Below are positions 28,242-59,498 of a stretch of DNA of 64,000 nucleotides, one piece after another. The DNA comes from Klebsiella planticola ATCC 33531 (GTDB lineage: Bacteria; Pseudomonadota; Gammaproteobacteria; Enterobacterales; Enterobacteriaceae). The DNA is taken from NCBI RefSeq assembly GCF_000735435.1, contig NZ_JMPP01000051.1, positions 1-64,000 of the forward strand, given 5' to 3'. Position numbers and translations under genes: made by a program. The first letter of the stretch is position 1. Every line of letters begins with the position of its first letter. The notes beneath the pieces are model-generated. The model was given only the letters and a program-made list of their open reading frames with translations. It was not told the origin of the DNA and made no database searches.

Positions 28242-28341
28242 GGAGAATCGATGAACGTCGCGCAGTTTACCTCTTCCGGGAGCTCCCACTATTCATATGA
28301 ACGGCTCTCAACTTGTGCTAAAAACGAAAGGACGGCATGCC

Positions 28342-30276
28342 ATGAATATATTCGATCACTATCGCCAGCGTTATGAAGCTGCCAAGGACGAAGAGTTCAC
28401 ACTGCAGGAGTTTCTTACCATCTGCCGGCAAGATCGCAGTGCTTATGCCAACGCGGCAGAACGGCTGCTGATGGCCATTGGTGAGCCAGTCATGGTCGAC
28501 ACGGCCCTGGAACCCCGGCTGTCCCGTCTCTTTTCAAACCGGGTTGTCGCGCGCTATCCGGCATTTGAAGAGTTTTACGGTATGGAAGATGCTATCGAGC
28601 AGATCGTCTCTTACCTGAAACACGCCGCACAAGGTCTGGAAGAGAAGAAACAGATTCTGTATCTGCTGGGCCCGGTGGGTGGGGGTAAATCGTCGCTGGC
28701 TGAACGTCTGAAATCCTTAATGCAGCGTGTACCTATCTATATCCTGAGCGCCAACGGTGAACGTAGCCCGGTCAACGATCATCCGCTGTGCCTGTTTAAC
28801 CCGCAGGAAGACGCGCAGATTCTCGATAAAGAGTATGGCGTGCCTACCCGTTATCTCGGCACCATTATGTCGCCGTGGGCGGCAAAACGCCTGCATGAGT
28901 TCGGTGGCGACATCACCAAATTCCGCGTGATCAAAGTGTGGCCCTCTATCCTTGAGCAAATTGCCATCGCCAAGACCGAACCGGGTGATGAGAATAACCA
29001 GGATATCTCCGCGCTGGTCGGTAAAGTGGATATTCGTAAACTGGAGCATTATGCCCAGAACGATCCGGACGCCTACGGCTACTCCGGCGCCCTGTGCCGC
29101 GCCAACCAGGGGATTATGGAGTTCGTCGAGATGTTTAAAGCGCCTATCAAGGTGCTGCATCCGCTGCTGACCGCGACCCAGGAAGGCAACTATAACGGGA
29201 CCGAGGGCATTTCGGCCCTGCCGTTTAACGGCATTATTCTCGCCCACTCCAACGAATCCGAATGGGTGACCTTCCGTAATAACAAAAACAATGAGGCCTT
29301 CCTCGACCGCGTGTATATCGTCAAGGTGCCTTATTGCCTGCGCATTTCCGAAGAGATGCGTATCTACGAAAAACTGCTTAACAACAGTGAGCTGACCCAC
29401 GCGCCGTGCGCCCCGGGGACCCTGGAGACGCTGTCGCGCTTCTCAATACTGTCGCGGCTGAAAGAGCCGGAAAACTCGAGCATTTACTCCAAAATGCGCG
29501 TGTACGACGGTGAAAGCCTGAAAGATACCGACCCGAAAGCGAAATCCTATCAGGAGTACCGCGATTATGCCGGCGTCGATGAAGGGATGAACGGTCTGTC
29601 CACCCGCTTCGCCTTCAAAATATTGTCGCGCGTGTTTAACTTTGACCACGCCGAGGTCGCCGCGAACCCGGTCCATCTGTTCTACGTCCTGGAACAGCAA
29701 ATCGAGCGCGAGCAGTTCCCGCAAGAGCAGTCGGAACGTTATCTGGAGTTCCTCAAAGGCTATCTGATCCCGAAATACGCCGAGTTTATCGGTAAAGAGA
29801 TTCAGACCGCCTATCTTGAGTCCTACTCCGAATACGGGCAGAACATCTTTGACCGTTATGTCACCTATGCGGACTTCTGGATTCAGGATCAGGAATACCG
29901 CGATCCGGACACCGGCCAACTGTTTGACCGCGAGTCGTTGAACGCAGAGCTGGAAAAAATTGAGAAGCCGGCCGGGATCAGCAACCCGAAAGACTTCCGT
30001 AATGAGATAGTCAACTTCGTCCTGCGCGCCAGGGCTAATATCAACGGACGGAACCCGAACTGGACCAGCTATGAAAAACTGCGCACGGTTATTGAGAAGA
30101 AAATGTTCTCCAATACCGAAGAGCTGCTGCCGGTGATTTCGTTTAACGCCAAAACGTCCACCGACGAGCAGAAAAAACACGACGATTTTGTCGATCGTAT
30201 GATGGAGAAAGGCTATACCCGTAAGCAGGTCCGTCTGCTGTGCGAATGGTACCTGCGCGTACGTAAATCATCCTGA
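28342..30276 (+). CDS. yeaG: PrkA-family serine protein kinase YeaG
   Basis: 644 aa kinase of the PrkA family, involved in nitrogen-starvation and stationary-phase adaptation in E. coli. Started at ATG 28342 it equals E. coli in length; the upstream codons are rejected. An N-terminal AAA-like domain contains the Walker A motif GPVGGGKS at 110-117, and a C-terminal PrkA kinase-like domain follows. It is very highly conserved in sequence. It forms an operon with yeaH across a spacer that holds a BIME repeat, behind a sigma-54 promoter. Confidence 0.97.
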   Translation: MNIFDHYRQRYEAAKDEEFTLQEFLTICRQDRSAYANAAERLLMAIGEPVMVDTALEPRLSRLFSNRVVARYPAFEEFYGMEDAIEQIVSYLKHAAQGLEEKKQILYLLGPVGGGKSSLAERLKSLMQRVPIYILSANGERSPVNDHPLCLFNPQEDAQILDKEYGVPTRYLGTIMSPWAAKRLHEFGGDITKFRVIKVWPSILEQIAIAKTEPGDENNQDISALVGKVDIRKLEHYAQNDPDAYGYSGALCRANQGIMEFVEMFKAPIKVLHPLLTATQEGNYNGTEGISALPFNGIILAHSNESEWVTFRNNKNNEAFLDRVYIVKVPYCLRISEEMRIYEKLLNNSELTHAPCAPGTLETLSRFSILSRLKEPENSSIYSKMRVYDGESLKDTDPKAKSYQEYRDYAGVDEGMNGLSTRFAFKILSRVFNFDHAEVAANPVHLFYVLEQQIEREQFPQEQSERYLEFLKGYLIPKYAEFIGKEIQTAYLESYSEYGQNIFDRYVTYADFWIQDQEYRDPDTGQLFDRESLNAELEKIEKPAGISNPKDFRNEIVNFVLRARANINGRNPNWTSYEKLRTVIEKKMFSNTEELLPVISFNAKTSTDEQKKHDDFVDRMMEKGYTRKQVRLLCEWYLRVRKSS

Positions 30277-30287
30277 TAACGGAAATT

Positions 30288-31691
<1,404 letters not shown>

Positions 31692-57016: not shown

Positions 57017-57267
57017 GTACAACGTTCGACGCAGGACTCTCCGCCAGCCTTGGCGCAGTGGGGTTGCTCTTCGACCATGAAGATGACTCATGTTGTAATG
57101 AAATTATGTCGCTTTCACTCATCCAGGGACTCTGGCATAAAATATGTTCTATTAATCAGAGACAATATGATGATTACTGAATGACATAACCAGATAAAAA
57201 GAAAGGATATGCTGGGATTCAGGGAATACATTCAGTTTTCATATCAGACTTAGGGTGCACCATCGCG
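57017..57267. other. Promoter region of mesX-mesD
   Basis: 251 bases, AT-rich toward the right. AGGGTG lies 9 nt before the mesX ATG. I looked for MetJ-type (AGACGTCT) and MetR-type (TGAA-N5-TTCA) operators and found none convincing. Confidence 0.4.
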
Positions 57268-58251
57268 ATGAATAAAGATTTTACTTTTACGATTAAACGT
57301 AGTTGTTTTGACGCGCATTATAACCCCGCTGAAAATACGCGAATTACAACCAATTTCGCGAATTTGGCCAGAGGGGAAAACCGCGAGGACAACTTACGTA
57401 ACACGCTGACGATGATTGACAATCGTTTTAATGCGCTGGCGTACTGGGATAACCCACAAGGCGATCGTTATTCTGTCGAACTTGAAATTATTTCAGTTGA
57501 AATGACACTCAATGACCAGCACCGCAGCGGCAGCTTTCCGGTCATTGAGATCTTAAAAACAAACATTCTCGATAAAAAAACGCACGAACGTATTGACGGC
57601 CTCGCCGGGAATAATTTCTCCTCTTACGTACGCGATTATGATTTTAGCGTGCGGTTGTTAGAGCATAACAAACAGCAATCCGCATTTAGCATCCCGGATG
57701 ATTTTGGTGAGTTACATGGCAATATCTTTAAACACTTCGTTAGTTCTACTGTATACCAGCAGAACTTTAACAAACCGCCGGTAATCTGCCTCAGCGTATC
57801 GAGCAAAGACACCTATCAGCGGACGGGAAATCAGCATCCGGTATTGGGTATCGAATATCAGCAAAATGGCTCGTCGTTGACTGAACAATATTTTTCCCGT
57901 ATGGGATTAAAGGTTCGCTATTTTATGCCGCAGAATAGCGTTGCACCGTTAGCGTTTTATTTTTCTGGGGATCTGCTTAGTGATTACACTAATCTTGAGC
58001 TTATCAGTACCATCAGTACGATGGAGACATTCCAGAAAATTTACCGGCCTGAAATTTACAATGCCAATGCCGCCGCAGGGCAATATTATCAACCGAACCT
58101 GAATCACCAGGATCATTCATTAACAAAAATTGTTTATGATCGGGAAGAGCGCAGCCAGCTGGCGATCGAGCAGGGAAAATTTACTGAAGAGCATTTCATC
58201 AAGCCTTACCAGAATATTCTTGAGAAATGGTCTGCTGGCTACGCGCTTTAA
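57268..58251 (+). CDS. mesX: DUF1852 protein, MesX-type partner of methionine synthase MesD
   Basis: 327 aa soluble protein of the DUF1852 family. DUF1852 genes occur next to a short core MetE gene, and the protein (named MesX in that setting) is required for the folate-independent methionine synthase MesD, which depends on oxygen. The sequence starts MNKDFTFTIKRSCFDAHYNP and has the family segment NFANLARGENREDNLRNTL. No transmembrane or signal parts. It is 27 nt before mesD on the same strand. Assignment rests on the family pair. Confidence 0.85.
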   Translation: MNKDFTFTIKRSCFDAHYNPAENTRITTNFANLARGENREDNLRNTLTMIDNRFNALAYWDNPQGDRYSVELEIISVEMTLNDQHRSGSFPVIEILKTNILDKKTHERIDGLAGNNFSSYVRDYDFSVRLLEHNKQQSAFSIPDDFGELHGNIFKHFVSSTVYQQNFNKPPVICLSVSSKDTYQRTGNQHPVLGIEYQQNGSSLTEQYFSRMGLKVRYFMPQNSVAPLAFYFSGDLLSDYTNLELISTISTMETFQKIYRPEIYNANAAAGQYYQPNLNHQDHSLTKIVYDREERSQLAIEQGKFTEEHFIKPYQNILEKWSAGYAL

Positions 58252-58278
58252 TTCACCGAACATACAAGGCTTTCTATT

Positions 58279-59310
58279 ATGAAAAAATTATTACCCACCT
58301 CGACGGCTGGCAGCTTACCTAAACCTTCCTGGCTGGCAGAGCCTGAGAAACTATGGTCGCCCTGGAAATTACACGATCAGGAATTAATTGAAGGGAAAAA
58401 AGATGCGCTAAGCCTGTCCCTGTATGATCAGCTACGCGCAGGAATTGACATTGTCAGCGATGGCGAGCAAACGCGCCAACACTTTGTCACCACCTTTATT
58501 GAGCATCTCAGCGGCGTGGATTTTGAGAAGCGCGAAGTGGTGAAAATTCGCAATCGCTATGAGGCGAGCGTGCCGACGGTCGTGGGTGAAGTGGCGCGTC
58601 AGAAGCCGGTTTTCGTTGAAGATGCCCGTTTTTTACGTCAGCTGACCCGACAACCTATTAAATGGGCCCTGCCAGGGCCGATGACGATGATCGATACCCT
58701 CTATGATAACCACTATAAAAGCCGTGAAAAGCTGGCCTGGGAATTTGCCAAAATTCTCAATCAGGAAGCGAAAGAATTAGAGGCGGCGGGTGTCGATATT
58801 ATCCAGTTTGATGAGCCGGCATTTAATGTCTTTTTTGATGAGGTGAATGACTGGGGGATCGCTGCGTTAGAAAGAGCGATTGAAGGACTAAAATGTGAAA
58901 CGGCGGTACATATCTGCTATGGATATGGCATCAAAGCCAATACTGACTGGAAAAAGACGCTGGGGTCAGAGTGGCGCCAGTATGAAGAGGCGTTCCCAAG
59001 GCTGCAAACATCGAATATCGATATCATCTCGCTGGAGTGTCATAACTCGCGTGTCCCCATGGACCTGCTTGAGCTGATTCGCGGCAAAAAGGTGATGGTG
59101 GGCGCGATTGACGTGGCAACCAATGCTATTGAAACCCCGGAAGAGGTCGCCGGTACGCTACGTAAAGCGCTTGAGTTTGTCGATGCCGATAAGCTTTATC
59201 CTTCGACCAACTGCGGGATGGCGCCCCTCTCTCGTCAGGTCGCCAGAGGCAAACTCAATGCGTTAAGTGCAGGCGCAGAGATCGTCCGCAAGGAACTGCT
59301 GGCGAAATAA
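58279..59310 (+). CDS. mesD: Core MetE methionine synthase, MesD type
   Basis: 343 aa, equal to the catalytic C-terminal half of MetE only; the N-terminal folate-binding half is absent. The zinc site is intact: His211, Cys213 (HICYGYG), Glu253 (SLECHNS) and Cys312 (STNCGMAPL). The homocysteine-site start TSTAGSLPKPSWLAEP and the substrate segment IIQFDEPAF are present. Paired with the DUF1852 gene it fits the MesD family, which makes methionine without folate from an unidentified methyl donor. This would supplement MetE/MetH, which are not in this window. Confidence 0.85.
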   Translation: MKKLLPTSTAGSLPKPSWLAEPEKLWSPWKLHDQELIEGKKDALSLSLYDQLRAGIDIVSDGEQTRQHFVTTFIEHLSGVDFEKREVVKIRNRYEASVPTVVGEVARQKPVFVEDARFLRQLTRQPIKWALPGPMTMIDTLYDNHYKSREKLAWEFAKILNQEAKELEAAGVDIIQFDEPAFNVFFDEVNDWGIAALERAIEGLKCETAVHICYGYGIKANTDWKKTLGSEWRQYEEAFPRLQTSNIDIISLECHNSRVPMDLLELIRGKKVMVGAIDVATNAIETPEEVAGTLRKALEFVDADKLYPSTNCGMAPLSRQVARGKLNALSAGAEIVRKELLAK

Positions 59311-59498
59311 CGCGGGCGGTGTCAGCGCGCTGAAAGAGAAGTCCGGGTCAGGCGTTCGGATCGCTATCCAGAACCCTGGCCGGACCGAACAGCGCGCAGC
59401 AGGACCGAACATAAAGCCTGAAGCCCCGCGCGTTCATCTCCCCTTTCACCGCCGTGCGGCCCGTCGGAATACGTGACTTTTGTCTGCCTCCACGAGCA

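Follow-up and report, generated by a model that had tools for sequence, protein, structure and literature searches.

The window, by which we mean the whole 64,000-nucleotide stretch of DNA that was analysed, carries two adjacent genes, mesX and mesD, preceded by a candidate regulatory region (Table 1). The product of the first gene covers the entire PF08908 (DUF1852) profile (positions 1-323 of 323; 612.4 bits, cut-off 25), a family whose current Pfam name is 'Putative oxygenase MesX', and a whole-genome search found only this one copy. The product of the second gene matches the catalytic domain PF01717 (132.9 bits) and the NCBIfam equivalog NF006589/PRK09121, 'methionine synthase' (701.9 bits, cut-off 392); proteins in the MesD position in Acinetobacter (713 bits), Sphingomonas (677 bits) and Rhodococcus (665 bits) also pass NF006589, which supports the MesD identity of the window protein. 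The description of this protein as a half-length MetE is correct because it covers only positions 419-748 of 750 in the full-length MetE model NF003556; to TIGR01371 it aligns over positions 425-752 with 106 bits against a cut-off of 930, short of a two-domain MetE of about 750 aa. The mesX-mesD spacing is consistent with a single operon, and the distance from the MesX match to the MesD match is 25-35 in 117 of 147 mesX loci (31 in the window, stop codon included). Each of the 147 fetched loci with mesX, among them two copies of the window, has a MesD match next to that gene; in one locus (L110) mesD lies in two pieces. At positions 28297-31691, elsewhere in the window, a PrkA kinase-type AAA gene (PF08298/PF06798) is followed by a DUF444 gene (PF04285), which we take to be a yeaG-yeaH-like arrangement.

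Table 1. Coordinates of the mesX-mesD locus in the window and of FMN reductase genes next to mesX in other loci
Feature	Position	Strand	Remarks
MetR-type site ATGAAGATGACTCAT	57077-57091	+	one mismatch to ATGAA-N5-TTCAT; 191-177 bases upstream of the mesX start codon
Promoter-like TTCACT-18-TAAAAT	57114-57143	+	downstream of the MetR-type site; consensus match only
mesX (DUF1852, PF08908)	57268-58251	+	327 aa; putative oxygenase partner of MesD
mesX-mesD gap	58252-58278	+	27 bases, from ORF coordinates
mesD	58279-59310	+	343 aa; core methionine synthase without folate domain
PF03358 FMN reductase	L170:3375-3956		upstream of mesX
PF03358 FMN reductase	L099:3876-4451		upstream of mesX
PF03358 FMN reductase	L146:865-1398		upstream of mesX
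PF03358 FMN reductase	L148:855-1391		upstream of mesX
PF03358 FMN reductase	L149:2568-3098	minus	upstream of mesX

Price et al. (PMC7857596) recognize MesD proteins by a phmmer score of 560 bits to ACIAD3523; with MesD of Acinetobacter lactucae as a stand-in for that query, the window MesD scored 697.6 bits and the full-length MetE of the same genome 105 bits. The residues expected of the enzyme are likewise present. The zinc ligands H211, C213, E253 and C312 and, for homocysteine, S12, E63 and D178 do not vary when five MesD proteins are aligned with the catalytic half of MetE from the same genome and with an additional MetE-like paralogue; they are the counterparts of the residues that Price et al. 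list for MetE and MesD (PMC7857596). An earlier note on this DNA had proposed a MesX-MesD pair, composed of a DUF1852 gene next to a half-length MetE-like gene with an intact zinc site, and each of these points, down to the gene coordinates, is borne out. By its sequence, then, the pair is MesX-MesD, a regular member of a published family, and the system itself is already known. The same genome encodes a second protein of the half-length MetE type (G000:C40:27374-28474, L164:1875-2975), a PRK06520-subfamily member of 367 aa that scores 725 bits.

Upstream of mesX, a block containing ATGAAGATGACTCAT is conserved in 19 sequences (the window, Raoultella ornithinolytica and congeners), and the site within it resembles the MetR consensus given by Leyn et al. 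(PMC4239095). The weight of this site comes from its conservation among relatives and not from the match in the window, where three MetR-type matches occur against 2.0 expected over the 64 kb and the site alone is no better than chance. At up to one mismatch within 250 bases, a MetR-type site is found in 110 of 132 distinct mesX upstream regions versus 2.8% of dinucleotide shuffles, a contrast whose strength is overstated because the regions are related by descent but were counted as independent. These 132 regions are the 147 extracted minus two window copies and 13 identical sequences; L149 was left out of the set because its match starts late. When a 13-base form of the motif was sought within 200 bases, the real motif occurred in 101 of the 132 regions and the 23 permuted motifs in at most 43, one permuted motif giving 12 perfect sites. 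The site is kept at distances from mesX that range from about 100 to 250 bases, it is present at up to one mismatch in 13 of 15 upstream sequences from the genus, and a site of the same type lies in the metR-metE intergenic region of the same genome. The promoter-like sequence downstream of it belongs to a class for which the consensus scan returned 7 sites in the stretch versus 3.8 expected, and it is partly conserved in the genus in the upstream alignment of 19 sequences.

Taken together, these sites suggest that MetR probably activates mesX in response to homocysteine accumulation. This agrees with the 2014 prediction that placed 'PF08908-metE2' in a well-conserved MetR regulon (Leyn et al., PMC4239095), to which it adds nothing categorical. 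Leyn et al. (PMC4239095) report no MetR orthologue in the Moraxellaceae and yet an Acinetobacter locus (L102) has a perfect MetR-type site upstream of mesX, so some of the sites may serve another regulator. Two further modes of control were considered and rejected. A MetJ operator was set aside on finding no match to AGACGTCTAGACGTCT, at up to three mismatches, in locus L001. Riboswitch control was set aside as well: the window has no Rfam match at all, to the cobalamin riboswitch or otherwise, and the riboswitches found elsewhere face away from mesX. The latter lie in two Rhizobium loci among 13 related ones (L121:4469-4678 and L124:4497-4705, minus strand), where a cobalamin riboswitch precedes mesX by about 300 to 530 bases but is on the opposite strand and hence points away from the gene.

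What such a pair would do is known chiefly from work on other bacteria. Complementation of E. coli with the Sphingomonas koreensis pair succeeded only with both genes and only with oxygen, and in E. coli MesD needs MesX and oxygen but neither MetF nor cobalamin; the same authors predict that MesX provides the methyl group as an oxidase or oxygenase that uses flavin (Price et al., PMC7857596). The DUF1852 transcript of A. baumannii falls by about 8 log2 units with methylcobalamin (PMC12892962), and N2O reportedly does not affect MesD in isolates of Acinetobacter and Rhizobium (PMC13059711). Both observations fit a cobalamin-free backup of MetH. The methyl donor is named in none of the passages found in the MesX/MesD literature, and it is for this donor that the family is of interest; the copy in the window, as a standard member, adds little.

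On this basis, a mechanism can be proposed for the window pair. MesD, in which the zinc and homocysteine residues are present, would bind homocysteine as a zinc thiolate and, judging from its family, would form methionine by methylating it, the folate domain of MetE being absent. MesX would supply the methyl group in an oxygen-dependent reaction, most likely drawing on FMNH2, the reduced flavin that a separate flavin reductase would provide; in enterics, this reductase may act from elsewhere in the genome. MetR, if it binds the site described above, would activate mesXD upon homocysteine accumulation, and the cell would profit by making methionine aerobically with no need of either methyl-folate or cobalamin. 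As a single account, an ordinary mesX-mesD operon that encodes a third methionine synthase, with this mechanism and MetR control, is in our judgement very likely the best explanation of the locus.

The flavin step draws its support from the neighbourhoods of mesXD in other lineages. A RutF/HpaC-type flavin reductase (PF01613) lies just downstream of mesD in 8 of 80 named loci, namely four from Acinetobacter and one each from Cellvibrio, Rhizobium, Pseudochrobactrum and a record titled Bacillus subtilis, and it occupies the same position on an A. lwoffii plasmid; the Cellvibrio protein does not reach the curated cut-offs of RutF and HpaC. An MsuE-like FMN reductase (PF03358) instead lies upstream of mesX in Acidovorax (at 44 bases), in three genomes of one genus (at about 110 bases) and in Burkholderia paludis (at about 550 bases; 1 of 80 named loci). 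The two reductase families are mutually unrelated, and no surveyed locus has both types beside mesXD. That unrelated reductases adjoin the pair in different lineages supports the use of reduced flavin by MesX. Neither type adjoins mesXD in the window or in any fetched Enterobacterales locus, in a survey that covered these two families and, for part of the loci, 1.5-kb flanks that could hide more distant reductases; with this absence, and with counts of 8 of 80 (PF01613) and 1 of 80 (PF03358) overall, support for the flavin step in enterics is weak. The genome containing the window has seven PF01613 and six PF03358 matches over cut-off, none of them on the window's contig, so reduced flavin could come from several enzymes. 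A RutF-like reductase of this genome was considered as the MesX partner, but the two closest candidates (L153 and L154) tied at about 50% identity and L154 is without a MetR-type site, so that no partner can be named. The Bacillus subtilis SK6B4 record noted above, with mesXD and a flavin reductase, has nearly the same layout and coordinates as the Pseudochrobactrum locus, and may be a mislabelled or contaminated assembly.

These neighbourhoods make a slightly firmer case, at the level of gene order, for a reduced-flavin reaction of MesX, which would be the one modest addition made here to a known system. In the fullest form of this idea, MesX would work as the oxygenase of a two-component system, using FMNH2 to release a methyl group from a common metabolite, or to carry it, on behalf of MesD; different lineages would have recruited unrelated reductases (RutF/HpaC-like PF01613 or MsuE-like PF03358), and enterics would use a reductase encoded elsewhere. 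We put this forward tentatively, as something just short of an even call. Should the flavin reading be true, a cognate reductase of either type combined with FMN, MesX and MesD would offer a direct in vitro assay with which to screen methyl donors.

The strongest competitor concerns the role of MesX and leaves that of MesD in place: MesX might not generate the methyl donor as an oxygenase but serve MesD as an activator, carrier or chaperone that requires oxygen, in which case MesD would take its methyl group from a small molecule already present. Structure offers such a reading some room. No solved structure is related to MesX by sequence, the single match in searches with one sequence and with a profile (E 0.31 and 0.24) being taken as noise, and no cofactor motif was identified; Price et al. 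(PMC7857596), for their part, leave open that MesX binds a methyl group covalently. An AlphaFold2 model of MesX built from a 60-row alignment (mean pLDDT 82.5, pTM 0.85, residues 273-287 below 50) had no match to the PDB with E <= 0.001 by Foldseek, while VIA-align gave a best Z of 4.6 to two SMC-type heads (76 and 97 aligned residues) among unrelated rows, and these model-based searches indicate neither a new fold nor a family, so that they contribute nothing to the mechanism proposed here. Against an activator or carrier, the occurrence of two unrelated flavin reductase families beside mesXD in different lineages suggests a redox reaction, and we judge it unlikely, if still a serious contender to an oxygenase.

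The window belongs to a genome of 5.67 Mb in 83 contigs. The earlier note had presumed that MetE and MetH are also present and had suggested looking for their genes, and both were found elsewhere in the genome: MetE at its full length of 753 aa (TIGR01371, 1128 bits against a cut-off of 930), with MetR encoded beside it (704 bits, cut-off 382), and a MetH (1950 bits, cut-off 1011), to which is added MetF (356 bits, cut-off 294). Since these three proteins are encoded in the same genome, the products of mesXD are predicted to form a third methionine synthase beside MetE and MetH, and the three routes could be compared in one cell.

The note had also called the presence of the pair in an enteric bacterium notable, a view that its distribution does not uphold. 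Every one of the 20 genomes searched in the genus has a mesX match (broken in one), as have 78 of 295 genomes of the family (36 of 154 genera) and 44 of 398 genomes of the phylum. The closest named locus is that of Raoultella ornithinolytica NBRC 105727 (MesX 97% and MesD 100% identical), which would make a Raoultella or Klebsiella the most likely source of the window, and a K. pneumoniae pair, VK055_0304/VK055_0305, appears in a 2023 expression table (PMC10269446). Price et al. (PMC7857596) report that genomes with MesD/MesX often also have MetH (75%) or MetE (32%). Among the mesX-positive family genomes in the MetE matches listed, 33 of 34 encode MetE at full length with a score over cut-off, and in the remaining one (G131) it is in two pieces, an overlap count that may be incomplete, with 15 MetE-negative genomes outside those listed. 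Given the spread in genus and family, the co-occurrence with MetH and MetE and the K. pneumoniae pair in print, presence in an enteric is unremarkable. For E. coli, none of 5,426 genomes matched positions 57100-59400 in a 'distant' blastn search, which compares at the DNA level only. In G131 (C1:2807206-2809442), metE consists of two overlapping pieces in different frames, by frameshift or sequencing error, and the mesX and mesD matches are unbroken. A mesX match was also found on 209 of 72,556 plasmid records. In the single stretch viewed, from a K. pneumoniae plasmid record, the mesXD pair has ppsA, ydiK and menI nearby and looks like chromosomal DNA, on which ground recent mobile acquisition was rejected as a special feature of the system. 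Two records labelled Acinetobacter phage (CAKLQH020000007.1 and CAKLQF020000011.1) contain a DUF1852 gene 75% identical to MesX and are possibly bacterial DNA.

With MetE and MetH already catalysing the reaction, mesXD might be a methionine synthase by ancestry but in this genome no more than a functional relic or a backup that is nearly silent. Intact MetE, MetH and MetF in the same genome would be in keeping with this, as would the mesX copies broken by stops in one of the 20 genus members (G005, C1:3193470-3194428, in two pieces) and split in two in one family genome (G179). Yet all functional residues of MesD are kept, the mesX match is unbroken in 19 of the 20 genus members, the upstream site is retained across the genus as described above, and the K. 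pneumoniae pair is expressed and responds to deletion of ompR (PMC10269446). A relic is therefore improbable in our estimation. That the half-length protein belongs to another core synthase family (MesA, MesB or MesC), with which it shares PF01717, or is a fragment of a split MetE can be dismissed as next to impossible, given that other half-length synthase models, whichever of these families they may stand for, stay below cut-off (PRK04326 232/406, PRK00957 129/258, PRK01207 93/399), that the full-length MetE is encoded separately and that no N-terminal MetE half adjoins mesD.

Several known systems can be set beside the functional mesX-mesD operon that we favour. The genome's own full-length MetE shares the zinc site with MesD, to which its catalytic half is 29% identical, and differs in having the N-terminal half that MesD lacks. 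Among solved structures, the best chain for MesD is 3RPD (673.9 bits over residues 3-342), titled 'Methionine synthase (B12-independent)' in the PDB and described by Price et al. (PMC7857596) as MesD bound to selenomethionine; its Ser22, Glu73 and Asp188 correspond to S12, E63 and D178 of the window protein, and it represents the MesD partner only. The Acinetobacter baylyi ACIAD3523/ACIAD3524 pair and the Sphingomonas koreensis MesD/MesX pair (Price et al., PMC7857596) share both families with the window, with the two genes adjacent, and four Acinetobacter loci outside A. baylyi (L081-L083 and L102) share the gene order, at 89-90% identity in MesD and 75% in MesX. The window differs from the Acinetobacter and Sphingomonas pairs in that neither of the two reductase types searched for adjoins it and in that MetE, MetH and MetF are present as well. 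Nearest in kind is the K. pneumoniae pair VK055_0304/VK055_0305, a DUF1852 protein and a 'methionine synthase' from the same or a close genus (PMC10269446), although the position of the pair may differ between the two, as it lies near ppsA, ydiK and menI on the K. pneumoniae plasmid and between an SDR gene and a GNAT gene in the window.
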